Made by a program: the position numbers and the translations under genes. Shown piece after piece: positions 19,541 through 63,801 of a DNA stretch of 64,000 nt. The DNA is from Antedon bifida (Eukaryota; Echinodermata; Crinoidea; Comatulida; Antedonidae). Location: the NCBI GenBank assembly GCA_963402885.1, contig OY727095.1, positions 7,197,001 to 7,261,000 of the forward strand. The letters run 5' to 3'. The notes beneath the pieces are model-generated. The model was not told where the DNA came from. It did no database searches and saw only the letters and a program-made list of their open reading frames with translations. How positions within the stretch are numbered: position 1 is the stretch's first letter; each line of letters begins with the position of its first letter.

Positions 19541-22500
19541 ATGGATATTGGAAATGGAAACGATTACTTTCGCCCAGTTGCCATCGTCGGCATGGGTAAG
19601 TTATAGATATTTTATTACTAATTTAGAGGACGTCATCTAATCGTTAAGCTTAGTTCCCAAAACGCAACGACTATGCATAACCAACTAAGTTGACCAATCA
19701 CAAGCGACAGTTCGGATGATCCATCGCGTCGTGATTGGTCAAATTACTTACGACGTGCATACATCATTGCGTTGCGTCCAAGTGGGAACCAAGCTTTAGA
19801 AAAATAACTGTTTATACAATAATTCTTTTTAAAAATAAATAAGCAAGTAGTAATACAAATGTTTTGTTAGTTCTGTCTACACTATCAAACTTTACGTGAC
19901 AAAAAATGTGATGTGCCCATATATGGGCATGATGACGACATTTGAGAATTTCACTACCATATTTGGGCACATCACACTTTTTTGTCAAACTAGTTTGATA
20001 GTGTAGACAGAGCTTTAGGAATATTAAACCAAATCGCAGTCTATAGAACATAAACTGATTTCACACTGTAGTTACAATATGTTGTGCCTAATTTCAATTA
20101 AATTCATTTATTTCGTTCAAGAACTCTGGCTTGTATACCCATACCTTAATTATCTGTTAATCCAATATTTGTAATGAATTCTTGTCGACACTGGCTTAGA
20201 TACTGTATAACTTACATGAATCATTTTGTAATTTATTCTCATTTGGCCCAACCAGCATTCGCTATAATGAATATATGCAATAAACTGAACTATAATTAGC
20301 ATTTATAAATAATATTGTTTTAAATATTAATTTATTATTGAATCTATTACAGGATGTAGAATGCCTGGCGGTGTGACATCACCAGATGACTTCTGGGAGG
20401 TCCTTCGAAATGGCAGAGATTGTGTAACTGAGATCCCATCTGACCGTTGGTCACTCGACACCTTCCACGATAGTGACCAAACCAAACAAGGCAAGATGGT
20501 GTGCAGACGAAGTGCATTCATCGATGGAATTGACCAGTTCGATAACACATTCTTCAAGATTTCACCAAAAGAGGCATCATCGATGGATCCCCAGCAGAGA
20601 ATTTTACTAGAGGTTACCCACGAAGCCTTTGAAGATGCTGGAATTGTTCCCGATGAATTGAAGTCTACGTGTGGTGTGTACGTTGGCATCGGACTGATGG
20701 ACTACAGTATACAGACATGTCATACTTCAACAATCAATGCCTACATGTTGACGGGTGCTGCACATAGCGTGGCCGCAAACAGGATATCGTACGCTTTTAA
20801 CCTGAAGGGGCCTAGCTTTGCTGTAGACACCGCTTGTGCATCGTCCATGACTGCTATGCAGCTCGCCTGCTCTGCTCTACAAAGGAAGGAATGTGATGTT
20901 GCCGTACTTGCTGGTGCCAATGCTTTAATTATTCCAGAAACATCTGTTGCCTTCAGTGCACTTGGCGTACTTTCACCAGATGGCAAAAGCTGTCCATTTT
21001 CTGCCTCAGCCAAAGGTTACGTGAGAGGCGAAGGATGGGGTACTATGATTCTTAAACCCCTGGACCAAGCTCTTAAAGACAATGATCACGTCTATGCTTC
21101 TATCGTCGGAATATCAATTGCCGCCAACGGTTACAGTCAGAGTCTTACTATGCCCTCGATGGTAGCACAACAACACACGATGGAAGAAACATACAAACGA
21201 TTTGGTGTCAACATGGCTGATGTGAATTACCTTGAAGCTCATGGTACTGGTACACCAGTTGGAGACCCAATTGAAGCAGAAGCTATCGGAAGAGCATTCA
21301 GTTCTCATCGTAAAGAGCCTCTGAGGATTGGATCTGTCAAGGGAAACTTTGGTCACAGTGAATGTGCTGCAGGAGCTGTTGCTACAATAAAAGCAGCGCT
21401 GATGTTAAACAAAGGATCATTAGTGCCAAATATCAACTACACAACAGCAAATCCACACATTCATTTAGACGACTGGAAGCTGAAAGTACAGACTGAAGTT
21501 GAACCACTCCCACGTACAGGGAAGAGAATAATTGGTGTTAACAGTTTTGGCTTTGCTGGAGCATTGGCTCATGCTATTCTACAGGAAGCACCAGAGACAG
21601 AAGATAAAGCTGCACAAGAACCAGTTGGGTGGTCGTTTGGTAACGACAAGACCAAAGGCAAACCTGTGTTAGTCCCACTATCTGGAAAGTCATCTAAAGC
21701 ACTAGAAGATGTAGCAACACAATGGATGGAATTTGAAACATCTGAAGACGCCACACACGCCATCGGTTGGCAATCAACTCGCAGAAAGCACCACGAAAAC
21801 CGACTTGCTGTCATCGCATCTTCAGGAGAGGAATTCAGAGAAAGATTGACAAAGTTCACCACAAATGAGAACGGAGAGGGAATATGGTCTGGAACAACAT
21901 ATAACCCATCACATAAAGTTTGCTTCGTTTTCCCAGGACAAGGACAGCAATGGGTGAATATGGGAAGACAACTCTACAAAACAGAACCAACATTCCGAAA
22001 CGTTATCAACGCCTGCGATGACATATTCTTTAAAGTTAGTGGATGGTCGCTGGTCAAATCTAAGGGATTGTTCAATGGTAACACATGTGCAAATATGGTC
22101 AACGAGGAAAATATCAACGATATGGAAATCAGCCAGCCTGCTATATGCTTCCTGCAGATAGGTTTATATGAATTATGGCGCAGTTGGGGATTGAAACCTG
22201 ATGTAGTTGTTGGACACAGTCTTGGGGAAGTTGCTGCTGCATACGCCAGTGGAGGGTTAACCTTAGAAGAAACTGTCAAAGTCATCTACTACAGAAGCAT
22301 AAATCAAGCACGTCTCAAGGGTGCAGGTAGCATGGTTGCCGTTCGCTTAACAACAGCTGAAGCAGAAGAGGTTTGCTCAAAATACAACGATTTGTACATA
22401 GCTGCTGAAAACGCACCCGGTTCACTAACACTGGCAGGATCTGAAGAAAGTATATTAGCTGTAGTCAATGATAAGAACATAAAAGCTAAACAACTCCGTG

Positions 22501-25500
22501 TGCAATGTGCTTTCCACACACCTTACATGGATCCTATGGAGAAGCCATACCGTGCCTCGATGAAAGGAGCTGTTACCACACCAGCAGGAACCCGCAACGT
22601 CAAATTCTATTCTACTTTGACTGGTGAACTCTATGATGGTGATTTTGGTACCGAGTACTGGTGGAAAAACATCCGAAGCACTGTCAAGTTTGAGTCTGCT
22701 CTTAAGAATGTCATTCAAGATGTTGATGCTAATGTCTTCATTGAATGTGCTGCTTCTAATACACTCATTTCTTCCGTCAAACAAACCGCAAAAGATCAAG
22801 GAAAAACTGATATCGTTACGGTAGCAACAGGAAAACGAAACGATGATGACAGAATGGCTGCACTTAACGCACTTGGGCAACTATACATCAATGGAGTAAC
22901 CTTAGATTGGAACAATATCACCAACGGCGATGGTAAATGGGTGGATGTACCAAAATACCCATGGCAACACTCATCATTCTGGAAAGAACCAGAACATACC
23001 TACAAGAAGCGTCTTGGTATTGATGACCCAACATACAGAGGTCAACTTGGTAAACTATCTCTTAACTCATTCCCATTCCTTGCTGATCACGTAGTGAAAG
23101 ATAAGGTAGTCTTCCCGGCCGCCGGTTATGTAGAGTATGCGCTACAGTCATTCTTCAAAGCAGATGAGTGCCCAAATCTGGATAATGTATCATTTAAACG
23201 TGTGTGCACATGGAACGATTCAAGCGTTGATGGATCACCTTACATTGAGTTGAACTGTACCAAGACTGGCAACCGTGTTGAGATTTCATCCGATAAACTT
23301 ATCTTCAGTGAAAGTGTAATCCCACGCTCCATTACAGAGACAAAAGTGGAACCTTTCGACATAGATGCCGTTTCAGCTAGATGTTCTCAGCGTCAAGATA
23401 AGGACGAATTCTATAGCAGCTTTACATCACTTGGTCTTAACTATGGCCCATCTTTCCAGGTTGTTTCTGACGTTTGCGTTGGTGACGGCGAAGTTATTGG
23501 AACCTTGATCGCACCAGAAGATAATAAACAACGTATACAAACAGCTCAACTAGATGGATGTTTCCAACTTCTACTACGTGCGGTTGGTGATACAACAACT
23601 CTTTACCTGCCCGTTGGAATCAAGAGCATCAGAATGCGAGTGCCAAAACTTCAACCATTCGAAGAGGTTCTTGCGTACGCTAAAGTTAATGAATGCGATA
23701 GTAAAACGATGACAGGTGATATTACAATTGTTTCAAAAAGTGGAGATGTATTAGTCAACCTTTACGAAGTTGAATTCAAGACAATCGACGGCGTCAAGAC
23801 CGACGTAAACATCGATGACTGTCTGTATGAAACAGTATGGCAACCATTTGAATCTTGCATGAACGATACATCAATCCTAAACCAAGTGTTCGACGAAAAG
23901 AACCTACACTCACGTTATCCTGATGAAATGAAAAGCATCGCAAAGGTTGAGAAATATGTAGATGATATTAAGAAAGTGTGTACATCGTATATTTGCCATG
24001 GATTGAACACCGTTGATCCAAAGCAATATGCTGTTCACCCTCGTTATCTAAACTGCCTGAACAATGTTGCTGCTAACACATCCAATCCATTGTCTTATGA
24101 GATGATCCAAAAGAAGCTGAACGAACTCGACGAACAAGTTCCAGAGATGAAGCATGAGTTAGGAATGATCAGAGGTCTAGGTGACAACTTCACCACGACA
24201 TTGGTAAACCCAGGTAGTGCAGTGAAACTTCTCTTCCGACCAGAATGTCTTCCAAGCTACTTTATCGACTCCATAACTACAAGGCTTTTCTACAAAACGG
24301 GAACAGAGGTAATCAACAAAGCTGTTCAAATGGCAGCTGAAAAGAAACAGGTTGTACGAGTCTTAGAGATCGGTGGAAGAATGGGTGGATTGGCACAATA
24401 CGTCTTGGAACCACTAAAACAACTTGGAGATGACCGCCGTCTTGAGTACATTTTCACTGACCTTAGTGTCACCTTTTTCATGCATGCTGAGAGCACACTT
24501 GCTGACTACCCATTTGTTAAATATCAACAACTGGACATTGAAAAAGATCTGGTTGAACAAGGATTTGCACCTGGCACAGTAGACCTTATTGTATGTATGG
24601 ATACCATTCACTCAGTTGTTGACATCAATGATACACTGTCTCGAGTAAAGGATCTTCTTTGCGATGACGGTTTGTTCCTGATGTACGAGGCTACCAACAC
24701 ACACTTCATTTCTGAACTTGTCTTTGGATCTCTTGACCTCTGCTGGGTTTACGATGATTTCAGAACAAGCAACTGCTGGCTCTCGAAGAAGCAATGGGCA
24801 GACTGCATGATCGACAACGGATTTGTAGATGTACAAACCGCTACAACATCTGGAGAGTTCTTCCACAGCATGTACCTTGCCAGAAAACCATCCTTCAAAA
24901 CCGAGCAGATTAAACCCACTCAACAAAAATACACGTTGATATGTGATCAGGAGACAAAACTATCAAAGGCCATCCAGAAAACATCTAGTTGTACATCCGA
25001 ATCATTAGCCACTGTCATGAAACGTTCGACTGATGAACCTCAAGAGATTGTTTATGTATGGAGTGAGTCTGATAGCAACTGCCACTCACTTCTCAAATTC
25101 CTTCAACACATTGATGAAAATCCAGCAAGTTTCAGCAGAGTTTGGCTCGTAACAGCCGGAGGAAACAAAGACAGTGTTAACGTTGAGGCTAGCAAAGCTG
25201 TTGGCTTGTTTAGAGCAGTCACTAATCAATCTGAAACTCCCATGTTCTCTATCGATGCCGACCCAAACAACTCACCACTAGCTCAGGCTGCACTCGTAAT
25301 GAAGTATATTATTAATAAGCCAGAGGGAGAAAGAGAAATTGTAATCCGTAACGACACATATCTGTACCCAAGACTTGCAAAATTACAAATCAAGAATGAT
25401 GCTGTTGATGTAAAAACACCATATTGGCAGCTAACACAGGACGGCGGACTTGCATCTTTGGATGATTTAGGAGTTTCATATACACCTCAATTGCCACCAC

Positions 25501-27689
25501 CAGCAGAGGGTAAAGTAGTAGTCCGTGTCAAGAGTACAGCATTGAACTTTAAGGATGTGATGATGGCACTTGGTATGCTTGAGGAATTGGTATCAGAAGG
25601 CGGCAGAAAGTTTGGTCTTGAAATGAGTGGTATTGTTGAGAAGGTTGGAAAAGGAGTGACGCACATTAAAGAAGGTGAAGAGGTTGTTGGATTTGGTGAT
25701 CATTGCTTTGCCTCACACGTTGTTTGCGATGCTAATCTTGTCGTCGCCAAACCATCAAATCTATCATGGGATGAAAGTGCTGGTATCGCCATCGTGTTTG
25801 CTACCTCGTATCACAGCCTGGTTGAGCGTGCTAATCTACAAGAAGGTGAAACAGTCTTAATACATTCAGCTTGCGGAGGTGTTGGATTGAGTGCTATTCA
25901 AGTAGCAAAGATGGTTGGTGCAAAGATAATGTGTACAGCCGGAACTCAAAAGAAACGCCAATATCTCAAAGAAAAACATGGCATTCAATATGTCTCGGAT
26001 TCACGATCAGATGCATTCTATGATGACGTAATGAAGTGGACAGATGGAAAGGGTGTCGATGTTGTGTTGAATTCTCTTGGTGGTGATCTGTTGACTAAGG
26101 GTATCAAGTGCCTTGCTCCTGGTGGTCGTTTCTGTGAAATTGGTAAACGTGACATATTGAAGAATGCGGATCTCGAGATGCAACTTCTTCTTGAGAATAA
26201 GTCATTCCTCTCTTGTCAAATCGATTTCATGCTGGATCTTCAAAAACCAAAAGCAAGAATTCTTTTACAGAAAGTATCTAAACTATTTGAAAATAACTCT
26301 CTGAAACCGGTTATATTTGAAGTGTCATCTATTGAAAATTACCCAGAAGTAATTGCCAGAACAGCCAAAGGCTCACATATTGGAAAGATGATTTTCAACA
26401 TCCCAGAAAACATGCAACCTCCCAGAGTAAACAAATCTTCTACGATCTTCAAAGACAATGCAACTTACATCGTCACTGGCGGATTTGGTGGAATTGGTCT
26501 TGCAATGTGCCGCTGGATGGCAGACAAAGGTGCTAAGCATCTTGCGATTGTGTCTCGTCGTGGATGTCGAAACGCAGCTGGACGACGGGCCGTCCAGTAC
26601 CTTCAAAAGAAAGGAGTCACAGTATACCAATTCGCAGCTGATGTTAGTAAACAAGAGCACATTAAAAAAATGTTTGAAGATCTAAAAGTGAAAAGAGCTC
26701 CAGCAATTAAAGGTGTATTCCATTTGGCCGGATACATCGCTGATGAGTCACTTCAGTCTCTTACATGCGAAGAAACCGATAAAATTCTTGATTCAAAAGC
26801 AACCAGTGCCAAGCTTCTAGATGCTTACACTAAAGACTGCGACCTAGATGTATTCTTCACTTTATCATCTGTAACAGCTACATGGGGTCATGCATCTCAA
26901 CCAATGTACATTACAGCAAACACATACCTTGATTCACTCGCTGAAAAACGAAGAGTTAGCGGTCTGCCTGCAATCAGTGCTCAGATTGGACCCGTTAGAG
27001 GTGCAGGATTTCTCGAAAACAGAGCTGAGGTCACACACAGTCTGGCATTAAAGGGACATCACTCTCTTCATATCGACGAATATCTTGAAGTATTTGGATC
27101 ACTTTTCCAATCAACAAATTCTCCAGCTGTCGTCTGCCTTGCTAATCAGGTAAGTTATATTAATTCACTATTACAGCTTTTTAAATAATTTAAGGTAGAA
27201 AATATTGACAGCGTTGTGATGATACGTTTTAAAACGATTTTTAAATTTCTCCTTTAACATTCTGTTTATGAAAACATTTATAAAATGTTCATATTTTTTC
27301 TGTAATTGTAATTAATGTCTTTTTTTCTGTAATTGTAGGATTGGGGAGCAACACAAATGTTCAGCTACAAAGAAAACATGAAGTACAAACACATGGCTGC
27401 TAGCGATAACATTTCAAAGACCGACTGTACACTAAGCCTAGAAGATGTAGAACAGCGTGTTAAGCAGAAATTGGGTGCGTTGTTGTGCGTCGACGCGGGA
27501 ACTATTGACATCAACCAGCCTATGATCAACTACGGAGTAGACTCACTGATGGCAGTCGAAATGGTTACATGGGCTAGTAAAGAATTGAATGTTGTTGTTT
27601 CACAACTTGATATCTTAGGAGGTATAACCACTAAGCTTTTGCTAGAAAAGTCTTTGAACAATGAAACTGTGTTGCCATTACCACAGTAA
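19541..27689 (+). CDS. FAS-like type I polyketide synthase, KS-AT-DH-MT-ER-KR-ACP
   Basis: Three exons: 19541-19595, 20353-27149 and 27339-27689, coding 2400 aa; introns in phase 1 and 0 with GT-AG ends. KS about 12-430 has VDTACASS (Cys180), EAHGTGTPVGDP and GNFGH. AT about 541-850 has GHSLGE (Ser641) and CAFHTPYM (His740). DH has His931 in LADHVVKDKVVFP (Asp where HxxxGxxxxP has Gly) and Asp1086 in QLDGCFQ. The methyltransferase has LEIGGRMGG (1356-1364) and YIFTDLSVTFF. ER about 1716-2035 has HSACGGVGLSAIQ. KR has TGGFGGIG plus Ser2191, Tyr2204 and Asn2208. The ACP has GVDSL (Ser2353). There is no thioesterase. All catalytic residues expected of a reducing PKS are present. Animal PKSs of this type use malonyl-type extenders in the cytosol; the product is unknown. 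A FAS is unlikely given the missing TE and the PKS-like MT. Confidence 0.93.
19644..19799. mobile_element. MITE family 2 copy in PKS intron 1
   Basis: It starts TAAGCTTAGTTCCC and ends AGTGGGAACCAAGCTTTA, with TTGACCAATCACAAG and GTGATTGGTCAAATT forming an inner palindrome. It lies in intron 1 (19596-20352) of the first PKS gene. Confidence 0.8.
19868..20015. mobile_element. MITE family 1 copy in PKS intron 1
   Basis: One of the best-preserved copies: AGTTCTGTCTACACTATC at the left, AGTGTAGACAGAGCTTTA at the right, arms ATGTGATGTGCCCATAT and ATATTTGGGCACATCAC. About 145 bp, almost wholly palindromic. Confidence 0.85.
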
Positions 27690-28892: not shown

Positions 28893-29684
28893 CTAATAAA
28901 TGATTGGATTAGCAAAAGAATGAGTTATTAGAAAGCACACCAACACATGCTCGACGTTGGTGTTAGTTCTGATGACGCAAAACGTAGAAAGACATGCATA
29001 TATGACCGGAAATATGAAACAGACAAGCGAAACTCCAACAATGATAATAAAAGTATTCAGAAGTCTTCTAGACCGTTGTAATTCCTCTGCGTTCTGTTGA
29101 ATAACTGATGGATTATGCTGATTAAGACTTCGATATATTTTCCAGTAAAGAAATATTGTCAAAAATAATATTGTTAAATAACTCATGATGAAAAAGATCA
29201 TTTTTGCTTCAACTATTGCGGCGTATAACAAAGATGGGATTGTCCATATCAAAGCGCACACGATAATACAGCGTTTAACTGTGACGATAACGTCATAGTT
29301 GAATGGTGCCCATACAAGAGCGATGGCTCGGTCAATGGCAATGGAGCCTAGCGTTAGAACAGACGTGGTTCCTATGCCGCAGTAAAGCGTTTGTAAACCT
29401 AATTTATCGTGTTGAAATGCGTACATTTGCGAATTCATATGCATAACAGTAAGATGAACAGATAAAGTAATGTTACAAATTACGTCAGACAATGCTAACG
29501 AACAAATAAAAATATTTTGTTTTTTCCATAACCTAGGCGTGGACGCGATTATAACAGCCACAAACACATTTTCAAGCGCAACAAATGACGAGTAAAAAAC
29601 ATCAAAGAAGACGATGTCATCAATAGGTGATGCAGTGCCTATGCAACTAGAAACATTCATTCTGTCTCCCTTGTATTTAGTCAT
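28893..29684 (-). CDS. Class A (rhodopsin-like) GPCR, short, single exon
   Basis: An intronless 263-aa frame with seven hydrophobic segments. N-glycosylation site NVSS near the N-terminus. TM1 contains ALENVFVAVI, TM2 LALSDVICN, and TM3 ends SIAIDRAIAL (DRA in place of DRY). A very short second extracellular loop without the usual cysteine joins TM4 and TM5, as in the melanocortin/cannabinoid/lysolipid-type receptors. TM6 has CFIFP in place of CWxP, and TM7 ends NPIIY followed at once by a stop, so there is no helix 8 or C-tail. The ligand is unknown. It could be a functional chemosensory-type receptor, a 3'-truncated gene, or one whose tail is on a further exon. It lies between PKS and FMO genes, facing the PKS. 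Confidence 0.75.
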   Translation of the reverse strand: MTKYKGDRMNVSSCIGTASPIDDIVFFDVFYSSFVALENVFVAVIIASTPRLWKKQNIFICSLALSDVICNITLSVHLTVMHMNSQMYAFQHDKLGLQTLYCGIGTTSVLTLGSIAIDRAIALVWAPFNYDVIVTVKRCIIVCALIWTIPSLLYAAIVEAKMIFFIMSYLTILFLTIFLYWKIYRSLNQHNPSVIQQNAEELQRSRRLLNTFIIIVGVSLVCFIFPVIYACLSTFCVIRTNTNVEHVLVCFLITHSFANPIIY

Positions 29685-30265
29685 CCGAGATGTTCCTTCT
29701 TCAAAGACTGCATGAAGAACCTTCCGTTACGAATGGAACAAGGATAATATAGGTCGTACTAAACTGATTTCAAAAGTAATTTAATAAATTACTTTTAACC
29801 TTTTAAGAAATCCAAACAAAATCTGTCAATAGAACATCGCCGTGACCGTGCTTTTTTCTAAATGTATCTGATGAAAAACTATGAAATACAATAACACAAT
29901 GAAATTGCACAAAGCGATAAACTCTTTAATAAACTGTGAATGCATACACGTAATTTGAATAATGCCATTAATGTAATTTGAGGTAGATAATGTGAAATGG
30001 GAATACTCCAATTTAGCAGACTACAGACAGTGTTAATATAATTCAGAAGCAATTAATCTGTACTTAATCTCAAATTTCTACTTGTCTAATTGATGTTTGT
30101 TTGACGTTTCTTGTGTTTGATGGAAATAAAGGAACACTCCCTGATCAGATAACCGGCCTTACGTACGTGCAAAACATTACGAAGGCATTGTGAATGCTGT
30201 TTCATCAGGTATTGCAGCGCCATATTTAGCCATTATTACTGTAAATTCGTTTACGGATTTATATT
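29685..30265. other. Spacer, no supported gene
   Basis: Upstream region of the GPCR gene (minus strand). AT-rich, with no recognisable exon, repeat or promoter motif. Confidence 0.4.
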
Positions 30266-30718: not shown

Positions 30719-33700
30719 TTATGTTTTATAAATTCCTAAAATAACAATCAACATAGAAACGGTGACCACGAGAAGTGGTTTGAATATAGATGTGCGATTT
30801 TGCACATCAACTTGCCTTGTTTTTGTTGGATTTACTGTATTTCCCCATGCATTCATGATAGCTTGTCTCGCTCCATGCCATTGGTGTGGTCCCTTAAGTC
30901 GGTAGGACGAAGGGTATGCTGGTCCAAAGAACACCTTAGCAGCAAGCTTTGGGTCGGTCAAAAACAGCGTATAGCTCGGCCTAGCACCAATATCACCGGC
31001 TAATTCTTCCTGGTATGGTAGGTGTGAAATCTAAAATAAACGTCATGTATATGATTAATTAATGTCGTAAAAGGAGTAAAATTAGCAATATTGTTAAAAT
31101 AACTGTTTAACTTCTCATCTTCAATAGCATGTCACAGTACAGTAGGTTTAAACAATATATCTGTATTATTATACCTACTTACAGCTACTTTTAGGCAGCC
31201 ATGCCTTTTGATGAGAGAATCAATTCGATGTTTGGCATCACGTTGTCGAGTCTGTAACTCTGGAATTCGCAAGTTGCCAGAAAAGACGGAAGTAGCCCAG
31301 CGGGCTTGCAGCTCAGCCACCGGTATTGTAGATCCTCCTAACAAACTAAGAATGCCGATGAATGCAAGAGTAGGGTACTTAGGCGATAGAATATGCTTAT
31401 ACAGCTCAAACCTAGTGTCTGAAATACAAAAAGTACTTATTAAAGGCCTATGCGATGCAGTTGCAATAGGGAAGCAAGCATCTCCTGGGGTGGGGAGTAG
31501 AGGAGCCTCCTCCCAACTTGTTTCGATCTTCAGACGCAGCATTTAAATGTTAAGCGAACGTCAAAAACAATTACGGTAATTGACGTGATAGTAGTATTAT
31601 TTTTAATCAAGCAATGTGGATTCTTTAAAAATGGCCAAAACAGCAATTGTGGCACGTCACAAAATAAGCATCACTGTTTGTACATTAAATAACACATGTT
31701 TATTAATTATAGACGATTATGATGTCTATTTTAATTTATTTTTAATTTTTGCATGTTTATGTCTTATGTCACTAGAGATCAATGATATTGTTGAAATAAA
31801 TATATACAATGTCATGTTCCAAAAAATAGGACAGCTGTCTTTAATATTGCGCGTGTCACTGTTTATTCGATTTATTCAAAAAGTATTCAAAAATACCGGA
31901 TAACCGTTTATTAATATTACCGTCAAAAATATCAGGATCAAGGAATGGAAAAGTAGTGCGATATCCAGTGGCACAGATTACGATGTCAATATTGTCAATG
32001 TATGTCCCATCTACAAATTTTACACCAGTCTTCGTAAACATCTCAACGTTATCCTTAACTTTAATCGTTCCGTTCATGATCCGATCCGGAAATGTGTCGC
32101 ACATAATTTTAGATGCAGTAAAAATCGATTTGGTTGATCGGACACCGAGACTGTCAAAGTCTGCTCTAGATTCAAACATTCGTTGGATAACCATTGCTTG
32201 TATACATTCGGGTACGTGTAATGCGCCTCGACTTACTAAGGAGTCGAGCGGTTGTCCCTTAGGACCTCGTCTAGAAAGTAGATAACAACCGCTACGCATA
32301 CAGATATACGTCTGAGAAATGACACAGAGAATGAAGCAATTTTAAGGCAGTGAATAAAATATACCACAATCACATTTTCAGGAACAAAATTATAAAAAAT
32401 ATGATTATTTCCATCGAATTAAGGCCAACTAAGACAGCCTCGTACGACGAGGTCTGACGAAACGTATTGACTCTTCACTGCTGTTGAATCCAGACGAGAC
32501 GGGTGCGTGGCATGTGTTTTAAGTCTTTGGAAGACCTTTAAACATGTTTAATTTTCTCCCGACAAGACGACTCCTCTTTGCAAAGACAGTATTAGCTATT
32601 AGTGCTGAAAATAAAAACACGGCGAGTCATTATGCAATATGAAACAAATAATACATACCATGTTGGCATAGTAGCTACACTGGGTTGATATATCGCCTGC
32701 GGAATGAGACGCACCTACGGATAAATTAAAAAATATATATATAAAATATTTTAATGCAACGATGAGAATAAAATGAACAACTAGAATGAATGTTCATTGG
32801 AAAGTCTCCATAATGTAAAGAAAAAGAAAACGATTAAACTTAAGCTCTGTCTACACTATCAAACTAGTTTGTTAAGTTCCTAAATATGATATGCCCAAAT
32901 ACGGTAGTGATATGACACCATCATGGTCACATCATATGTTTTCGTCACATAAAGTTTGATAGTGTAGACAGAGCATTACAATCATCAATATAGTATCTTA
33001 AATAATGACTGTGGATGTGACTGATGACAAAACTGTAATAATTTCATCCTTACCAATAACTAAAACATTCTTTCCAGTAACTGTCTCTCCTTTTCTAAAA
33101 GCGTTGCTGTGCACCACTTTACCTTTGAACTCATCCATTCCTGGAAACACTGGCATTATTACATTAGAATGAACCCCAGTGCAAACCATCACACCATCGA
33201 ATACCGTCGTAACGGCCTGACCCTCTAGGCTTCTGGTTGTTACATTCCATTGTCCAACTCTGGCACTGTCACTTACCGGTTTGACGCCCGTGACGTCTGT
33301 GTCAAAACTTATGTAGTTTTCTAAGTCATAATGTTTAGCGTAATCGCGTAGATTTTTAATCACGTGATGAATAAGTAAATATGGCGGATAATCTTTGGGA
33401 AATGGGAAGTCGCTGAAACACATCATCTCTTTACTGGTATTGGTTACTAGGTTATCGTACATGGCACTAGCCTCTCCTCTGTTGGTATGTTCATCGTAGA
33501 CCCATACTCCACCTGAAAAAGATGTCAAACCAAACCATTACTATTCTGGAAGACCAATAGGAATTTCGTAAAAGTAGCCAGGTGTTATTGAACGCATTAA
33601 TTTTAATAAATACATGAGCACAATTCGCAAAATGTATAAAATGTGCTACGCTGTACGCCAGGGTAAAACGATAAAATAATAAACAATTGCACGCTGTTTC

Positions 33701-43806: not shown

Positions 43807-43870
43807 CGATGAAAAGCGTTGGAAGAATAATCCATCCCTTGTGATTGGTCAAATCATTTGCGTTGCGCTT

Positions 43871-46606: not shown

Positions 46607-46840
46607 TATAAGTTGAGGTTAAATCACATTCACGACTTGATGAAGCAGTACGAGAATAAACGTACTCTTTGGACCAAAAGTCATGAAAAAAGGTGAGGTT
46701 TAATAACAAAAAGTTTAAATTTAAGTTGATGACGGATATAGACGGGTAAATAATTCTGAAGGATGAAAAGAAACGTATGTGCTTTGCTGATCGATTGATG
46801 GATGGAATGATCAAGTAAAGATATTTTACATTTGATTCTC
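46580..46840. repeat. Segment duplicated at 48062-48300
   Basis: Beyond the last satellite unit, AATATAAGTTGAGGTTAAAT, CACATTCACGACTTGATGAA and GCAGTACGAGAATAAACGTA recur at 48062-48165, followed by looser similarity (GACGGATATAG, GACGGGTAAATAATTC). This is a diverged duplication of the satellite's right flank. Confidence 0.75.
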
Positions 46841-47064: not shown

Positions 47065-47784
47065 TAATTATACCAGCAATTTACAGAAAATATGAAACAA
47101 AACTATATGTACTGTATAAGATGTTTGAGAATTATTTTAACGTGGTATTTAGTGGTTATAGTCGTGAATACTGTTTATTCTGTGTGCCTGCTAATTTAAT
47201 GTATATACAGTATATCATTATAAGGAATATACGTACTAATTGAATTTTATTATTATCGTACAAGGTTCATTCATACATTTACACATTTGTACTTATACAC
47301 CGCAGTCTAAACACTTCAACCATTTACATTTAACTGTTTCTGCACAAGATCACATCTAATGGGCGCATGGCCACATAGCAGATCACTAACGGTGATCTCC
47401 TTATCCCCAGACCTTACTTGGAACTAATTATACCAGCAATTTACAGAAAATATGAAACAAAACTATATGTACTGTATAAGATGTTTGAGAATTATTTTAA
47501 CGTGGTATTTAGTGGTTATAGTCGTGAATACTGTTTATTCTGTGTGCCTGCTAATTTAATGTATATACAGTATATCATTATAAGGAATATACGTACTAAT
47601 TGAATTTTATTATTATCGTACAAGGTTCATTCATACATTTACACATTTGTACTTATACACCGCAGTCTAAACACTTCAACCATTTACATTTAACTGTTTC
47701 TGCACAAGATCACATCTAATGGGCGCATGGCCACATAGCAGATCACTAACGGTGATCTCCTTATCCCCAGACCTTACTTGGAAC
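47065..47784. repeat. Perfect 360-bp tandem duplication
   Basis: Positions 47065-47424 and 47425-47784 read identically by eye, from TAATTATACCAGCAATTTAC to CCAGACCTTACTTGGAAC. There is no ORF beyond about 60 codons. It is either a very recent duplication or an assembly artefact. Confidence 0.93.
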
Positions 47785-47859
47785 TTTTCAAACACTCTTT
47801 TAGCTTCAATGCTCCAACTTTATTTAATTCATTTAATTTTTTATTCTAATTTTTTGTGC

Positions 47860-48061: not shown

Positions 48062-48300
48062 ACATAGAGTCATTGCGTCTCTAGTGGGAACCACGCTTTA
48101 GGATATAAGTTGCTGTTAAATCACATTCACGACTTGATGAAGCAGTACGAGAATAAACGTACTTAAAAGGTGATTTTTAACAACAAATAGTTGAAATCAG
48201 TTGCTTGACGGATATAGGCCTAGACGGGTAAATAATTCCGAAGGATGACAGAGGCTCAACAAAAAGAACGTAATTGCTTTGCTGCTCGAAGAGAGTTTAC
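48062..48300. repeat. Duplicate of the satellite's right flank (46580-46840)
   Basis: One partial 50-bp satellite unit (CATTGCGTCTCTAGTGGGAA) followed by the same unique flank as at 46580. The TTTGGACCAAAAGTCATG stretch of the first copy is missing here. Confidence 0.75.
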
Positions 48301-48315
48301 ATTTAATTCTCTGTG

Positions 48316-51800: not shown

Positions 51801-54800
51801 TGATATTCCAAAATATCAATGGCAACACAATTCGTTTTGGATTGAGGGTGAAGAGCGCCGCAACAGACGTCTTGGTCAGGATGACCGGACATACAAAGGC
51901 CAAAACGGAAACATAACATTCGCGGTATTTCCTTTCCTGGCTGATCATGTAATCCAAGACAACGTTATTTTCCCGGCGGCCGGATATGTAGAGTACGCTT
52001 TGCAATCATATTTTGCCGACGATCAAATTCCATCTTTGGCAAATGCGAGCTTTAAGCGAGTATGTACTTGGCCAGACAACACTGATAGCAGTAACAATGC
52101 TGTTGGTCTTAATTTGACGTGTGTCAAAAATGGTAGCTACGTTGAAGTCACTTCGAACAACACTGTTTACAGTAGCTGTGAGCTGTTAACTACGAATAAC
52201 AAAGAAACGAAATCAGTTAAAATTGATAAGGAGAATATATTGAAAAGATGTACCACCAGCGTAACACAAGATGAATTTTACGGTAGAATGAGTTCAGTTG
52301 GTCTGAATTACGGAACTGCGTTTCAGGTGATTGAAGAGGTGATGGCTGGAGACGGTGAAGCATTTGCGTACCTGTGCCCTGCTGAAAATAATAATCAACG
52401 TATACAGACTACACAGTTAGATGGCTGCTTTCAGCTTCTTCTCAGTACCATTGGAGAGACAACAACGCTTTATCTCCCAGTTGCAATTGACAAACTTCAG
52501 ATGTTTGTTCCTAAAATACCACCATGTCAACAACTAATGGCATATGCTAATGTTACAGAATGCGATAGTAAGCTCTTGGTTGGTGATATCATACTATCTA
52601 CTAGTGACGGTTGTACATTGGTAAAACTTACGGGTGTTAGATGCCAAAACATCAACGGGACGCGTTCAGATGTTGATTTAGGTGAATGTCTGTATAAGAC
52701 GATATGGCAAACTTCATCTGCATGTATGGGAAACACGTCTGTAGTTAGTGAGGTGTTCGATGATATTATTCAAAGAAAAATACACACTGATGAAACAGAC
52801 GGTATAGCAAAGGCTGAAAAGTTCGCGCCTTTAATTAGATCAATATGTGCGTCTTATATTCGTCATGGTCTTAAAACGGTCGACAGTTCAACTTACAACG
52901 TGCACCCGTTGTATATACAGCGGTTGAGAGCTATAGCGGCCGATACATCTGTTAAAACGATTCCATTCGAAGATCTTCATAGAAACCTCGATGAGCTCTA
53001 TAAAGCTGTGCCAGAACTTGAACATGAAATTGGAATGATAAGAAACCTTGGAGATAATTTCACCAGAACTCTTATAGAGCCAGGAAGTGCTGTGAAGCTT
53101 CTCTTCAGACCAGAATGTCTTCCCAGCTATTTCATGGATTCACTTACTACAAAATTGTTCTACAAAGCAGGTACAGATATCATTGATAGAGCTGTTCAAA
53201 AGGCATTGAAAGAGAAATCAGTAGTGCGTGTTCTGGAGATTGGTGGGCGTATGGGTGGTCTTGCACAATACATACTCGAACCTCTAAAGAAGTATGGAGA
53301 AGAAAAGCGAGTTGAGTATATATTCACCGACTTGAGCGTCACATTTTTCATGCACGCAGAGAGCGCATTAGAGGAATATCCATTTGTTAAGTATCAGCAA
53401 CTTGACATAGAAAAGGACCTAGCTAGCCAGGGATTTGTTCCTGGTACGGTAGACTTTATCGTGTGTATGGACACAATTCATTCAGTTGTTGACGTCAATA
53501 TTGCTCTTGGTAGAATTCGAGATTTACTGACTGATGATGGATTGTTCTTGATGTACGAGGCGACAAATACACACTATGTAGCTGAACTTGTGTTCGGGTC
53601 TCTTGAGTTATGCTGGGTCTATCAGGACTTCAGAACCAACACCTGCTGGTTGTCTAAAGAAGGATGGGTACAAGCGCTTGTGGACAACGGCTTTGCTGAC
53701 GTAGAATCAGAAACAACAACTGGAGAATTTTTCCACAGCATGTTTCTTGGGCGAAAACGTTCTTTAACAGTACATAAAGGCATCAAAACAATTGATCAAA
53801 ACACAGAATGTCAGCGCTATTTGATTTTCACTGACAGAAAAACAAATGCCGTTGCTGACTGTCTAAGCAAATGTCTTAGTGCGGAAGTTATAATTCAACC
53901 ATTAACAGATATCAACAAAGGTATTCTCATCAATAATACAGAAACAGACAAAACCGAAGTAATATACTTGTGGAACTCAAATGATAGTAACTGTCATAAT
54001 CTCTTCAAGCTCTTACAACAAGTTGATAACTCGTCAGAAGCTTTCCAGAAAATATGGGTTATAACCACTGATTCGAATAATGGATCACAAAACATAGAAG
54101 GGAGCAAAGCCATTGGCGTTGTTCGGGCTATCACAAACCAATTTAATGCTCCAGTTTATTCCATTGACCTGGAGAGTAAGAGTTCTTCGCGCGCACAGGC
54201 TGAACTTGCAGCAAAATACATCATGTCATATGATCACAAAGAAAGAGAAATTGCTATTCGAGATGGTGCATACTTCTATCCTAGAATAATCCCAACAAAC
54301 ATCAACACTGAAAGCGTATCAACGAAGTACTGGCAGTTAACCCAAAGTTCATCATCGGCGCTAGCTTCTTTAGACGACTTAGGCGTTTCATACCTGAATG
54401 AAATGATTCCTGATGATGGAAAAGTACTGGTCAGAATCAAGAGTGCTGCTTTAAACTTCAAAGATGTGATGATGGCACTGGGTATGCTTAATGCGTTGAT
54501 AAAGACTGAAGAGAAGCAGTTCGGTTTGGAACTAAGTGGCATTGTAGAGAAAGTTGGTAAAGGTGTAGTAAACCTTAGAGAAGGTGATGAAGTTATTGGT
54601 TTTGGTGATCATTGCTTCGCTTCTCATTCAATATGTGATGCTCAACTTGTGGTAAAAAAGCCATCCAATTTAACCTGGGATGAGAGTTCAGGTATAGGAA
54701 TAATATTTTCTACCTCGTATCACAGTTTAATAGAACGTGCTAATCTGCAGCCAGGAGAAACCGTCCTAATACATTCAGCCTGTGGTGGGGTAGGACTAAG

Positions 54801-56792
54801 TGCAATACAGGTTGCCAGAATGGCCAAGGCTAACATCATATGTACAGCTGGATCTATTAAGAAACGACAATACCTTAAAGAAAAGTTAGGCATCAAGTAT
54901 GTATCTGACTCAAGATCAGATGCGTTTTACAATGATATCATGCAGTGGACAAACGGTCGCGGTGTTGACGTTGTGTTAAACTCGCTAAGTGGAGACCTCT
55001 TGATCAAAGGTATCGAATGCCTTGCTCATGGAGGCAGGTTCTGTGAGATTGGAAAGCGTGACATTCTACAGAATTCAAATCTCCAGATGCAGATGCTACT
55101 TGAGAATAAGACATTTATATCAAGTCAAATTGACATCATGATTGATCTAGACAAACCACGAGCAAGTAAGCTTTTGACTGAAGTGTCAAACAAATTCCAA
55201 AATGGAATCTTCAAACCAATCAAATTTGAAGTCTCGTCGATTGAAGAATACCAAGAGGTGTTTGCGAGAACCGCCAAAGGATCCCATATTGGTAAAGTAG
55301 TATTCAATATCCCGGATGAGATACAACCTCCCAAAACAAACCCAACAACCAAGCTGTTCAAACAAAACGCAACGTACATCGTCACTGGTGGATTTGGCGG
55401 CATTGGACAAGCAATGGCTAGATGGTTGGCGAATAAAGGAGCGAAGCATATCGCGTTAGTTTCCCGTCGTGGTTGTCGAAATTCGTCTGGTAGACGGACC
55501 CTAAAATACCTCGAAGCCAAAGGTGTCAATGTGTACAAGTACTCATTGGATTTAAGCATAAAGGATAATGTTCTAGCCTTGATGAAGGGATTACAGAGTG
55601 AACATGCACCAGAGATTAAAGGTGTGTTTCACTTGGCAGGATTTATTATGGAGGAGACATTCCAGAGCTTGACCAATTCAGAAATTGACAACATTTTGTC
55701 ATCAAAGGCTGGTAGTGCCCAGCACTTGCACGATGCCACTAAAGACATGAATCTTGAAATATTCTTCTTACTATCGTCTGTGACTACTATGTGTGGAAAT
55801 TCATCACAGTCTATGTACATAGCAGCAAACAACTTCCTGGATGCTCTTGCTGCAAAAAGAAGAGGTGATGGTCTACCAGCACTAAGTGTACAGTTGAGTC
55901 CCGTAAGAGGAGCGGGTTATTTAGAAGATAAATCCGGTGTTGCACAGGCTTTGAACATGAGAGGTCACCTGTCACTACACGTCGACGAATTCTTAGAAGG
56001 ATTGTCGAATCTTCTGCAATCACCTAATCAACCGGCCGCTGTTTATCTTGCAAATCAGGTACGTGGTCATTATTTTAAATATTATACTACATTGCAAATG
56101 TCATGTTCAAATTTATTGTATTTGGCAAAATATTTTTAAGGAAACAGACAGGGAGAAATGGCAAGTGTTCGGAAGCACTCCTTTTTTCAAAATGAGAGTA
56201 ACAAAAAGAGTGAAAAGTGAAATTTCGTTGGCCAAAGGCTAAGCATAATTATAACAACAAAAGATAATGGAATGAACCACGACGTAACGGATTCTCATTG
56301 TGTATCGTTTCCGATAACGTGTTGTATTGCTAGGATGCTACAGTATAACGCGTGTATCAGCAACTTAAATATGATAAAACGCACTGTATCTCGGAACTTT
56401 AGTTGATAATGTCTACCATTTTTCTTTTTCAGGACTGGAACGTGATGCAAATGTTTGTATACCCTGAAAGCATGAAATTCGTACATCTGGCAACGGGCCA
56501 ACAGGTCGCTAAAACCGATTGCTCTCTAAGCCTAGAAGACATCGAAAAGAACGTGAAACAAAAGATGGGTAAATTGCTCTGCGTTGAACCTGAAACCATT
56601 GACGTCAACCAACCAATGATCAACTACGGTGTCGATTCGCTGATGGCGGTCGAAATGGTGACATGGGCTAGTAAAGAGCTTAACGTTGTCGTGTCGCAGT
56701 TGGATATTCTCGGTGGCATTACAACGAAGCTTTTGCTGGAAAAGGCATTGAATAAGGAAGCTGTGTTGCCATTGAAATTGAGTGAAACCTAA
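48832..56792 (+). CDS. Second FAS-like type I polyketide synthase, KS-AT-DH-MT-ER-KR-ACP
   Basis: Three exons (48832-48877, 49214-56058, 56433-56792) code 2416 aa, with the same intron phases (1, 0) and the same breakpoints (after the KS VGIG and before the ACP linker) as the PKS at 19541. KS: VDTACASS (Cys178), EAHGTGTPVGDP, SNFGH. AT: GHSLGE (Ser637), CAFHTPIM. DH: His927 in LADHVIQDNVIFP and Asp1085 in QLDGCFQ. MT: LEIGGRMGG (1356-1364) and YIFTDLSVTFF. ER: HSACGGVGLSAIQ. KR: TGGFGGIG, SSVTT and Tyr2217 in QSMYIAANNFLD. ACP: GVDSL (Ser2366). No thioesterase. The ACP region is almost identical to its paralogue's in protein although the DNA differs at many codon third positions, a sign of purifying selection. 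It is a tandem paralogue and was probably duplicated in this lineage. Confidence 0.93.
48990..49132. mobile_element. MITE family 2 remnant in intron 1 of the second PKS
   Basis: Only the right half is clear: GAACTGTCGTTTGTGATTGG, TCAACTCACTTGCG and CATTGCGTTGC..TTTAGTGAGAGG. Intron 1 spans 48878-49213. Confidence 0.6.
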
Positions 56793-58229: not shown

Positions 58230-61200
58230 ATGTCGATCCTAAAGCAGGCCTTAGTCGTAGCTGTTACTGCCGTAGCCGTCTTGTATCTACCAGGACTATG
58301 GAAGGAGAAGTTGCCAGTTATATTTGACGGCCGAGTGGAACCAGGCTTCGAAAGAGTATTTGAAGCATTCAAGTGAGTACTGTATTCATATATAGGAATG
58401 CTATAGTGTTGAAATATATACAGCGTTATAATGCAGCCCACAGGAGCGATATACTGTACAATACAATAGAGGTCAACTACTATAATCCTATTGAAAAAAA
58501 GCTCCTATACACTAATACACTGAGCGTATTATAATCTACATACAGGATATGGTTTAAATAAGGTATACTTCGCACGCGTGTAAAGCCCTGTTTACTACAA
58601 TCATGTCATATCACTACCATATTTGGGTAATACTACCATATTTAGGTACATCAATTTTTTTTATCAAACTAGTTTGATAGTATAGACAGAGCTTTGGAGC
58701 AATAAACACAGAAATTCAATGTCAAAAAAACTTTATTTAGGCCTACAGCAAAATATTAACAGACATGAATATCAAAAGATGGCATAATGTTATACAATAT
58801 GAGCCTATATTATATATTTGGTATTAGCCTTACACTTTTTTTGTTTAGAGAGCATTACAGAAATGGCATAGAACCGTCTGACGGTGGATCAGCTTTTGCG
58901 GCGTACCATAAAGGTAAGAAGGTAGTTGACATCTGGGGTGGCTATGCTGACAAGGAGGCCCATCGACCATGGAAGCCAGACACACTCCATAACATTTACT
59001 CGAGCGGTAAGGGTGTGGCTGCTATATCCATCGCCATGTTAGTCGACCGAGGTCTACTCAAGTACAGTGATAAGGTTGTAAAGTACTGGCCGGAGTTTGG
59101 TAAGCATGGCAAACAAGACGTGACTGTTGAAACTTTGCTCAGCCATCAGGTACGTAGGCATATGATCGATACCTGGATCTGATACCTGGTTACAATACTC
59201 TCGGCACTTCCAAGCTGAATGGTGCCCCTCTCAATGATAATTATACAGGCAATCTATTCCTACAGATTACAGGCCGTGCATTGACCACCAGAAGTAAACC
59301 GGCCATAAACTTTAAGTAAAAATGGCCAGCTGCCTATTACTAATACAAGCAATTGCTTAAGAGTATAGCTATACATAAAAACGTATCAATATTCATAAAA
59401 TGATGTTTTCTTCTTTTAATTGATGACGTAGGCCGGTATTCCATTCCCAAATGAATCGCTTTCTTGGGATTTGTTTCGAGATCATGATCGCTTGGCTGAT
59501 GTCCTGGCAGACTCTGTGCCACAATGGGAGATAGGTACTGGACATGGCTACCACGCTGTGACGATGGCGTCTTTCTGTGGCGTTCTTTTGAAGAAAGTTG
59601 ACCCGAAACATAGAGCCCTTGGTCAGTTTGTCCACGATGAATTGGAAGTACCATTTGGTAAGTATCTGGAACGGAAGGACTGCACTCTGTCGATTGTGTT
59701 GTCATTGCGTAGTCTAGACATGGCCCCTTCTCTTTTCTCGACAAAACAAACGTCTCTAAAAAATCCTTATTCTCATTTCAACAAACCAATATAACAACCC
59801 GGCAGTTGTACAGATACTGTACTCACTGTCTTAATATATTGTTTTACCCTAATGTCGCATGAAATATTTTCTGCAGTGTGGACAGGCTTTTGGTAGCACG
59901 CGCGCTGGTAAACAGGATATCAAAATATTTTTTGTTTTGAAAAATAACAGTAAACATTTTTATATTTTAAGGAATTGACATCCATTTTGGACTTCGCAAA
60001 GAGCTATTTTACAGAGCGACACGGATGGAGGAAGACAAATACACTACCAGTCAAATGTTATCTGTAATGATTAATAATCCATTGATGCGCTCCTACATAT
60101 TTAAATCATTGTTTGGCGGAAGCGATACATTATATGACAAAATGCTTAAGAATACGGAACAACTGTTGATGAATGTAAGTTTGAGTGAGCGAGCGGAGCG
60201 GTAGGTATATTGACATGAGCGTTGGTGGGTAACATGACACGAGCGGTGGGTAAACTCGACACGAGCGGTGAGTAAACTCGACACGAGCGATGAGTAAACT
60301 CGACACGAGCGATGAGTAAACTCGACACGAGCGATGGGTAAACTCGACACGAGCGGTGAGTAAACTCGACACGAGCGATGAGTAAACTCGACACGAGCGA
60401 TGAGTAAACTCGACACGAGCGGTGAGTAAACTCGACACGAGCAGTGGTAACTCGACATAAGCGATGAGTAAACTCGACACGAGCGGTCTCGACACCGGAC
60501 ATTATTGTGTCTTCCAGGGCGTGTCATACATGCGAACCATGCAATTCCTATGGATAACATTTCCTAACTTTTCCTGAGTTACTAAACATACGTTTTGATA
60601 TGAGAATATCTGATGAAACTTTTTATATAATTTCAGCCATACAAATTAAATGATCCCGAGAACAGAATTGTTGAAGTTCCGTCTGCGTTTGGTGTTGGCA
60701 CAGCCGAGGCCCTAGCTAAACTATACAGCATCTTGGTCAACGGAGGGGAATTGAACGGGAAGAGGATCATGTCCGCGAAAGCAGTTGAACAGTTGAATAC
60801 AGTCGTTACTAAGGGCATGGACAAAGTTGTTATGATAGATGTTGAGTTTGGACATGGTGTGATTATCAGCAAAAGTCCGGTAAATCAAACTGAACTTTGA
60901 AGAATATTCATATATCTAGCAATAGGCCTATAGTATATAATAGTAATACTAATTGAGTATTGAGGCTTTATATTGGTTTCAATAATTAAAAAAAAATGAA
61001 TGTTGATTACAATATATATTTGAAATAACATGATTTGGTTTCAATTTCACAGATTGGTAAAGCGTTTGGACACAGCGGAGTAGGTGGCCAAGAAGGCTTC
61101 GGAAATCTCGAATTAAAACTAGGTTACGGATATGTGACGAATACACCGACCATTAGCCTAACGGAAGACGGCCAACGATATATATTGCTACGCGACATAC

Positions 61201-61235
61201 TTTACGACTGTGTCAGAAAATTGGAAGAAAAATAA
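58230..61235 (+). CDS. Serine beta-lactamase-like protein 1 (beta-lactamase domain family)
   Basis: Six exons (58230-58372, 58849-59149, 59432-59657, 59972-60174, 60637-60879, 61053-61235) join in frame to 432 aa. An N-terminal hydrophobic segment (ALVVAVTAVAVLYLPGLW) suggests a signal anchor. The beta-lactamase/transpeptidase fold motifs are SSGK (SxxK, Ser99 and Lys102), GYHAVT (Tyr188, in the YxN position but with Ala for Asn) and GHSGVGG (HSG near residue 379, in the KTG-box position). Animal members of this family are hydrolases or acyl-transfer enzymes of uncertain substrate and are not antibiotic-resistance genes. A tandem duplicate follows 0.6 kb downstream. Intron 4 carries a 22-bp minisatellite. 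AATAAA at 61486 is a likely poly(A) signal. It lies just downstream of a PKS that has no thioesterase. Confidence 0.88.
58585..58695. mobile_element. MITE family 1 copy, left arm degraded
   Basis: Right end GTTTGATAGTATAGACAGAGC; the left shows only AAAGCCCTGTTTACTAC. It lies in intron 1 of the first beta-lactamase-like gene. Confidence 0.65.
60235..60488. repeat. 22-bp minisatellite in intron 4 of the first beta-lactamase-like gene
   Basis: About eleven copies of ACACGAGCG(G/A)TGAGTAAA plus CTCG. Because 22 is not a multiple of three, all three minus frames stay open, giving overlapping spurious ORFs. The unit contains GGTGAGTAAA, a consensus 5' splice site, in several copies. The array starts about 60 bp after the real exon 4 donor. 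Confidence 0.93.
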
Positions 61236-61485: not shown

Positions 61486-61491
61486 AATAAA
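61486..61491 (+). terminator. Candidate poly(A) signal of the first beta-lactamase-like gene
   Basis: AATAAA about 250 bp after the stop codon, followed by a T-rich stretch. Confidence 0.5.
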
Positions 61492-61838
61492 ATATTCAAT
61501 TGGTGTTTATTTTTTATTTTCTGTATTCATGGAGATATACCTTTATGCTGTATTTCGAAATCTGCATTAAAATATTCAACAACAAAAATTAACATAGTTC
61601 AATATATCTTTAAGGAGAGTCAATACATTAATACAGTCGTTATAACATGACTGAATTATTTGAAAGAACCTGTCTGTGTAGACCCTTAAGGTAAACACAC
61701 AGTACAACAGGTCAAGTAAAAATAAACCTTAATCATTGTTTAAACAAGTAATAGTTTAAATATAATATCATCGCCACGTTGAATAACATGATTGCACAAC
61801 TCGTTAAACATTGAACACAGCATTTATAACAAGGCAGT

Positions 61839-63801
61839 ATGTCGATCCTAAAGCAGGCCTTAGTCGTAGCTGTTACTGCCATAGCTGTCTTGTATCTACC
61901 AGGACTATGGAAGGAGAAGTTGCCAGTTATATTTGACGGCCGAGTGGAACCAGGCTTCGAAAGAGTATTTGAAGCATTCAAGTGAGTAGGCCTATACTCC
62001 CGATATTATTCGGGTTGCTTGGGTTTCTGTATATACAGCGTTAGTACGCGTTCTTATAAGTCCGAAACATAACACAATCAATATATAGATCAATTGAAAT
62101 CCGATAGCTCCCATACAAAACAGTTTAGTCCAGTACTTTGATTTGCCATTTTTCCAGGACAGAAAAATATTGAGTTTATATTGCCATTATACATTGATTA
62201 ACATGCCTACCATTAATATAGCCTAGAAATTGCTGGTAGCGTATTGTTCAGTAATATTCAAAGGCCTACTCAAAGTATAACAAATAATTTTGCAGGGAAC
62301 ATTACTCAAATGGCATAGAACCGTCTGATGGTGGATCAGCTTTTGCGGCGTACCATAAAGGTAAGAAGGTGGTCGACATCTGGGGTGGCTATGCTGACAA
62401 GGAGGCCCATCGACCATGGAAGCCAGACACACTCCCTACCATTTACTCGAGCGGTAAGGGTGTGGCAGCTATAGCCGTCGCAATGTTAGTCGATCGAGGT
62501 CTACTAAAGTACAGTGATAAGGTTGTAAAGTACTGGCCGGATTTTGGTAAGCATGGCAAGCAAGACGTGACTGTTGAAATGCTCATCAGCCATCAGGTAC
62601 GTATACCCACCGATGTCTCTTCTGAATTTGACAACCTCCCCACCTGGCTGGTTCGAGTCCCAGTCCGGGTTAAATGGTGTCCTCGAACTACAATTACTGA
62701 GTTTATACAGTAAATGCTATATCTATAATGCCAGGTTTAATGACACTGTGGTCCTAATTGTTTTCGTAACCTACGGAGTGAACGTTACGATATCATGATT
62801 TTCAACACGAATCCAAATCTCTGCAACAGTAATACTAATAGGGTCTCAAATACACTGATGTACATAGTTTTAAAGATGTTTCCTTTTATTAATGGGATTT
62901 AGGCAGGGATTCCATTTCCAAATGAAACGCTTTCTTGGGATTTGTTTCGAGATCATGATCGTCTGGCTGATGTTCTGGCAGACTCTGTGCCACAATGGGA
63001 GATAGGTACTGGACATGGCTACCACGCTATAACGATGGCGTCTTTCTGTGGCGTTCTTTTAAGGAAAGTTGATCCGAAACATAGAACTCTTGGTCAGTTT
63101 GTCCACGATGAATTGGAGGTACCATTTGGTGAGTATCTATAAGCCAAGCTTACTTTCTTTCAAGTTTGAATTGTCCCGCTTTTATTATGCTGTTGCCTTT
63201 GAATGTGCAGCAAATATAGTAGTGAACAAATGTCTTTTTATTTTAAGGAATTGACATCCATTTTGGACTTCGCAAAGAGCTATTTTACAGAGCAGCGCGA
63301 ATGGAGGAAACCAAATATACTGCCAAACAAATGTTGACAGTAATTAGTACTCCATTGATGCGATCAACCATATTAGGGTCAATTTTTCGAGGAGAAGATA
63401 CTTTGTGGAATAAGATTATGAAGAATATGGGATCAATGATGTCAAATGTAAGTTTGAGGAATTTTAACTAACTCAAATGTAGCTGGGGCGAGGGGAGGGA
63501 GAGACAGACAGGATAAGTACGGGGTAGGGAGATTAAACTATCATGTTATACATTTCAGGCATACGCACTTAACGATCCCGAGAACAGAATTGTTGAAGTT
63601 CCGTCAGCGTTTGGTGTTGCTACGGCGGAGGGTCTAGCTAAACTATACGGCATCTTGGCAAACGGAGGGGAATTGAACGGGAAGAGGATCATGTCCGAGA
63701 AAGCAGTTAAACAGTTGAATACAGCCGTTACTAAGGGCATGGACAAAGCAATCATGGTAGATGTGGAGTGGGGACCTGGCGTGGCTATAAGCAACATTCC
63801 G
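61839..63801 (+). CDS. Serine beta-lactamase-like protein 2, 3' end beyond the window
   Basis: Five exons (61839-61981, 62296-62596, 62903-63128, 63248-63447, 63559-63801) match exons 1-5 of the gene at 58230 with identical phases. Exon 4 is one codon shorter. Exon 1 is almost identical to its partner in DNA. SSGK, GYHAIT and the N-terminal hydrophobic segment are conserved. The last exon, with the HSG motif, must lie past position 64000. It is a recent tandem duplicate: exons 1-3 are nearly the same, while exon 4 has drifted (SIFRGEDTLWNKIMKN against SLFGGSDTLYDKMLKN), so the copies may be diverging in substrate. Confidence 0.86.

Follow-up and report, generated by a model that had tools for sequence, protein, structure and literature searches.

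The 64,000-base window examined here (contig OY727095.1 of the crinoid Antedon bifida, positions 7,197,001 to 7,261,000; 0 N) contains two polyketide synthase genes (PKS1 and PKS2) that flank two flavin-containing monooxygenase genes (FMO-A and FMO-B) and are followed by two esterase-like genes of the serine beta-lactamase fold (BLA1 and BLA2), as listed in Table 1. All gene models are conceptual and were built from genomic sequence alone; GT-AG intron borders are found in all six enzyme genes. A first-pass annotation had put forward the span 19541-63801 as a candidate biosynthetic gene cluster, and the gene models reproduce this span exactly, 19541 being the start codon of PKS1 and 63801 the end of the last esterase exon inside the window. 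The same models bear out the linkage of PKS, FMO and esterase-like genes within 44 kb, and the gene identities, originally read from motifs, stand far above chance (e.g. PF00743 at E 5.5e-143 for FMO-A).

The polyketide synthases

Both PKS genes had been described as complete and free of a thioesterase (TE), a description that holds on the evidence of open frames, GT-AG introns and Pfam domains. In each, the domain order is ketosynthase (KS), acyltransferase (AT), dehydratase (DH), methyltransferase (MT), enoylreductase (ER), ketoreductase (KR) and acyl carrier protein (ACP), or KS-AT-DH-MT-ER-KR-ACP, with the ACP encoded in the last exon, and Pfam reports no TE domain in either protein. The two proteins are 62.4% identical across 2416 aligned columns and have both intron positions in common, one after the AIVGMG/AIVGIG stretch and the other before the ACP exon. 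This order, with MT and ER and without TE, is that of the pigment synthases SpPks1 and CrPKS, which were compared with the window PKSs through published features. Beside the KS active site, both window PKSs also carry the G(L/M)MD motif of these pigment synthases in the form GLMD (residues 132-135 of PKS1 and 128-131 of PKS2). GLMD is the form reported for crinoids, where it was found in 17 of 18 genomes, and GMMD is reported for 77 other echinoderms (45 sea urchins, 21 sea stars, 8 sea cucumbers and 3 brittle stars; PMC11414698); judged against these echinoderm forms only, the motif accords with a crinoid origin of the window.

Knockdown of sea urchin PKS-2 impairs spicule formation (PMC4604110), and the window genes might be taken for counterparts of this enzyme with a role in the skeleton. 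The PKS2 of S. purpuratus is, however, printed as KS-AT-DH-KR-ACP-TE with an asterisk on the DH (PMC4604110), whereas the window PKSs have an MT and, by Pfam, lack the C-terminal TE of this type. We consider such a correspondence very improbable.

When the KS of PKS1 was compared with solved structures, the top scores belonged to microbial PKSs, many above human fatty acid synthase (FAS; 268.5 bits) and some below it, and EcPKS1 and EcPKS2 were not among the best 60 of 77 matches. The feature of animal FAS-like PKSs (AFPKs), namely a KS nearest to animal FAS, was not found in PKS1, the copy so tested, and on these KS scores PKS1 is classed as a PKS rather than an AFPK. The same KS scored higher with LovB, a fungal reducing enzyme (284.8 bits), than with norsolorinic acid synthase (241.2) or CTB1 (229.1), both of which are non-reducing.

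The KR tyrosine is present in both copies (Tyr2204 of PKS1 and Tyr2217 of PKS2) and, together with the Ser, Lys and Asn that we take to share in catalysis, aligns with the KR of AmphB; the nucleotide-binding motif of the KR is also there, and that of the ER is kept in both PKSs. In addition, the ACP exons of both match an ACP model named for a highly reducing PKS. CrPKS and SpPks1, the characterised synthases of aromatic pigments, are by contrast reported to be without the KR Tyr (PMC11414698), a defect seen in neither window PKS. Given that the Tyr is kept in both, an unreduced naphthoquinone would not be the default product. The association with naphthoquinone pigments made in the first-pass annotation retains the support of GLMD and the SpPks1-type domain order, but is weakened by the intact KR Tyr, and PKS1 and PKS2 may, instead of making naphthoquinones, be paralogues of a reducing kind. 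For the MT we would expect a structural role, as its S-adenosylmethionine (SAM) motif reads GGRMGG in both PKSs in place of the GAGTGG of CurJ.

Taken together, we lean slightly toward the view that PKS1 and PKS2 are functional animal paralogues of the type I iterative class, with the SpPks1/CrPKS architecture and able to reduce at least part of their chain. The domain order and catalytic residues are read directly from the gene models, and it is activity and degree of reduction that we infer. In the mechanism proposed, malonyl units would be loaded via the AT and condensed on the KS of each PKS, and with complete KR catalytic residues and the ER nucleotide motif at least part of the chain would be reduced, unlike in CrPKS and SpPks1. 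In keeping with the lack of a TE in the PKSs, the chain would be released from the ACP by cyclisation or via a separate enzyme, for which a serine esterase would be a fitting candidate.

Two features of the copies weigh against this view. Within domain borders that we drew ourselves, identity between PKS1 and PKS2 is 76% for the KS, 74% for the MT, 73% for the ER, 77% for the ACP and 65% for the AT, and it is lower for the KR (58%) and the DH (49%), which leaves it uncertain that the reductive cycle works. The MT (24195-24884 in PKS1, with its counterpart in PKS2), moreover, is among the best conserved domains, on a par with KS and ER, and retains the His and Glu that active enzymes have.

Flavin-containing monooxygenases and esterase-like genes

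Of the two FMO genes previously annotated, both are matched by PF00743, but only FMO-A is complete. Residues 2-499 of FMO-A align with an ancestral mammalian FMO (6sek, E 7.8e-118), and the protein has the GxGxxG motif for flavin adenine dinucleotide (FAD), the FKGxxxHS and ATGY motifs, a variant motif for nicotinamide adenine dinucleotide phosphate (NADPH) and a hydrophobic C-terminus. FMO-B has 475 open codons and a PF00743 score of 354.5 bits; Ala replaces the first Gly of its NADPH motif, and its model, for which no first exon was found, is without the FAD GxGxxG of this enzyme class. Motif searches for this exon found none on the minus strand from 30 to 49.2 kb, and between 38.3 and 49.5 kb returned a single match, at 49.1 kb, that is not FMO-like. 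A tblastn search of the whole window with the FMO-A exon-1 peptide recovered only the FMO-A copy (next best E 3.5), and no FMO-B first exon emerged from Pfam scans of six frames at 38.35-48.35 kb and of the minus frames at 48.3-49.8 kb; as a positive control, the same kind of scan recovered FMO-A exon 1 alone at E 2.4e-10. The exon may belong to sequence missing near the 50-base satellite at 43862-46614, or may lie outside the window. Since it is the FAD-binding exon that was not found, FMO-B as modelled is probably unable to bind FAD.

The description of two serine beta-lactamase-like genes is correct as to fold, BLA1 belonging to PF00144 (the serine beta-lactamase fold family) and BLA2 being its near-copy, but the genes are nearer to carboxylesterases, and BLA2 runs off the window with the first five of its six exons inside. 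Among solved structures, BLA1 is most closely matched by the carboxylesterases 5gmx (E 2.8e-65, in an alignment spanning most of BLA1), 8j5v and 5gkv, presumably all of family VIII, whereas class C beta-lactamases reach only ~1e-6. BLA1 carries SSGK at 99, GYHA at 187 and HSGVG at 379, and thus the S-x-x-K, Tyr and HSG-type motifs of family VIII, of which BLA2 shows the first two; S-x-x-K and GYH are common to BLA1 and these carboxylesterases, the former being given as a family VIII motif in PMC4844572. Unlike 5gmx, 8j5v and 5gkv, BLA1 comes from an animal, is interrupted by five introns and encodes a hydrophobic N-terminus. No NCBIfam model matched BLA1 at its curated cut-off (LipL, 181.5 vs 650). 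A 22-base minisatellite of ~11.5 copies lies in BLA1 intron 4 (60236-60487), and the matching intron of BLA2 measures ~110 bases.

Ages of the duplications

Comparison within the three pairs relied on 4-fold sites because the Nei-Gojobori estimate was saturated for the PKS pair (pS 0.76, past correction) and gave a dS of 3.7 for the FMO pair. Identity at 655 such sites is 41.5% for PKS1 and PKS2, a value that none of 1000 shuffles attained (mean of the shuffles 29.7%). For FMO-A and FMO-B it is 30.4% over 112 sites, which 209 of 1000 shuffles equalled or exceeded, so that this comparison is saturated, and for BLA1 and BLA2 it is 85.8% over 141 sites. Over 371 codons, BLA2 is 85.7% identical to BLA1 (dN 0.087, dS 0.241). 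By these 4-fold-site identities, the two PKSs and the two FMOs are old duplicates, and the esterases arose from a recent duplication. The FMO genes are nested within the PKS pair, and as both old pairs are still together, the PKS-FMO linkage itself may be old.

Neighboring features

Table 1. Features of the locus, with coordinates in the window.
Feature	Position	Strand	Description
PKS1	19541..27689	+	2400 aa; exons 19541-19595, 20353-27149, 27339-27689
GPCR (7tm_1)	28893..29726	-	Single-exon open frame, 277 codons; Pfam
FMO-A	30719..35569	-	522 aa, six exons, complete; last exon end taken from open reading frame
FMO-B	36095..38331	-	475 aa, four exons; no first exon found
50-base satellite	43862..46614	n/a	About 55 copies; between FMO-B and PKS2
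PKS2	48832..56792	+	2416 aa; exons 48832-48877, 49214-56058, 56433-56792
BLA1	58230..61235	+	432 aa, six exons; stop taken from open reading frame
BLA2	61839..63801	+	Five exons, 371 codons; last exon beyond window

A G protein-coupled receptor (GPCR) exon, absent from the first-pass annotation, was found by Pfam between PKS1 and FMO-A; its frame ends straight after an NPIIY motif and represents either one exon of a gene that extends further or a degenerate copy. A laminin-type gene occupies 2500-5205 of the minus strand, its Laminin_N exon spanning 4564-5205 and its laminin EGF domains lying at lower coordinates. Pfam was run over six frames at 1-19.5 kb, 27.6-30.9 kb and 38.35-48.35 kb and over minus frames at 33.6-36.1 kb and 56.8-58.3 kb, the remaining window being covered by open reading frames and gene models only; the scanned parts yielded as further matches only the laminin-type domains, the GPCR and pieces of FMO-A. 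Rfam at gathering thresholds and a tRNA scan gave no matches.

The copies of the 50-base satellite match at 96%, and a blastn search of the window with its unit also returned 9 partial matches beyond the array, of which that at 48069-48108 (95% identity over 40 bases) was the best. Two 360-base tandem copies with a 100% match lie at 47065-47785, 1 kb upstream of PKS2, and either arose by duplication very recently or are an artefact of assembly. Upstream of PKS1, tandem arrays are found at 10649-11187 (unit of 143 bases) and 15873-16980 (unit of 167 bases).

Microbial contamination was considered as an origin of the enzyme genes and was rejected because of the introns with GT-AG borders in the six models. 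Against a bacterial collection, the KS-AT region gave 4 relatives among 329 candidate stretches, 25-27% identical, and in the genome of the best of these the nearest KS match is 39% identical; as the scan used two peptide patterns only, it is weak evidence of absence. The PKS patterns had no match in viral contigs.

Evidence for and against a shared pathway

Physical linkage of suitable enzyme genes, as would be expected of a biosynthetic gene bundle, is observed at this locus, and FMO-A and the esterase-like genes are chemically suitable for tailoring and release. As such, the locus is a testable candidate gene bundle with a putative shared pathway; both this pathway and the class of its product are inferred. 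That some real functional bundle exists here we regard as possible but doubtful, and that FMO-A and the two esterase-like genes act on the PKS product as somewhat unlikely.

Much of the evidence is also consistent with coincidence, in which the PKS and FMO genes, both anciently duplicated, and the recently duplicated esterases would happen to be neighbors with unrelated roles, e.g. detoxification or ester hydrolysis. Each gene type forms a tandem pair, an arrangement presumably common in animal genomes; the duplications are of unequal age, a GPCR exon stands between PKS1 and FMO-A, and for FMO-B no first exon was found. Gcm-like sites, counted with a consensus that we assume to be that of Gcm, occur in the window at chance level (3 vs 3.16 expected; 58 of 100 shuffles reached 3). 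On the other side, the old FMO pair is nested in the old PKS pair, and with 26,838 genes in A. japonica (PMC7351957) and 22 FMO genes in H. pulcherrimus (PMC7005274), the chance of finding an FMO among the six neighbors of a PKS is ~0.5%, a figure of rough arithmetic that mixes two species and is uncorrected for the choice of the window on account of this very feature. We hold coincidence to be an evenly balanced proposition; it concerns the neighboring genes and is compatible with two working, partly reducing PKSs.

If the genes do act together, the product could be a pigment. In a sea urchin, PKS and FMO3 do have a pigment in common, which knockout of PKS abolishes and knockout of FMO3 alters (PMC7005274), in agreement with the first-pass annotation, and fmo genes of clade 1 show enrichment in pigment cells (PMC7455242). 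In such a bundle, the chain would be left unreduced despite the KR, its ring oxidised by FMO-A, and the chain released or shortened by the esterases to give an aromatic crinoid pigment. The GLMD motif, as in the 14-carbon synthase CrPKS, and the SpPks1-type order are in line with this, as is the hydrolytic side-chain removal proposed for one crinoid pigment (PMC11414698). However, the KR Tyr that is missing from both characterised aromatic synthases is intact in both copies here, and FMO-A could not be assigned to the urchin FMO clades. We consider a pigment bundle quite unlikely.

Alternatively, the genes could serve a reduced polyketide unrelated to pigments, with FMO-A as the oxidising enzyme and the esterases releasing the chain or transferring the acyl group. 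The intact KR and ER residues are consistent with such a product, as are serine esterase-like genes adjoining a PKS that has no TE, and animal bundles with unrelated genes interposed are documented (PMC12833800). We rate this proposal as unlikely.

Two KR-intact PKSs of pigment-synthase architecture would suggest that reducing enzymes also belong to this family, and would turn the pigment line's loss of KR function into a testable event. A 2024 paper states that tailoring genes are not clustered in echinoderms, and ascribes to this the lack of known tailoring steps for their polyketides (PMC11414698). Against that report, a true PKS-FMO cluster would be new, and the locus supplies named candidates for these steps. 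Among the literature matches listed, in a coverage that leaves out most subscription journals, none described an echinoderm locus of this PKS-FMO kind.

Comparison with known systems

Of the characterised enzymes, CrPKS, from the crinoid Anneissia japonica, resembles the window PKSs in its domain order with cMT and ER, in the lack of a TE, in GLMD and, going by its residue numbers, in length; it differs in the reported lack of the KR Tyr, and it ignores NADPH (PMC11414698). SpPks1 of the purple sea urchin is printed in the same order as the window PKSs, KS-AT-DH-MT-ADH-KR-ACP (PMC4604110, Table 2), but with an active-site residue marked as absent from its KR, and it has GMMD rather than GLMD. 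Several lancelet PKSs, among them BRAFLDRAFT_87410 and 87413, have this order with no KR defect marked in the same table (PMC4604110), a likeness of printed order only; in light of these, an intact KR may be the older state of this PKS type.

Among animal gene bundles, the sponge oro bundle likewise consists of linked biosynthetic genes with unrelated genes interposed (PMC12833800). The sponge bundle is conserved among producers and biochemically validated. With little confidence, we would suggest that the crinoid locus is the first echinoderm polyketide cluster, in which KR-competent, TE-less PKSs in tandem would cooperate with an FMO and with serine esterases, both linked to them, and the esterases would release or trim the chain, yielding polyketides distinct from the CrPKS pigments. 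If this is true, the locus would be an animal counterpart of those fungal PKS clusters that have stand-alone release enzymes.

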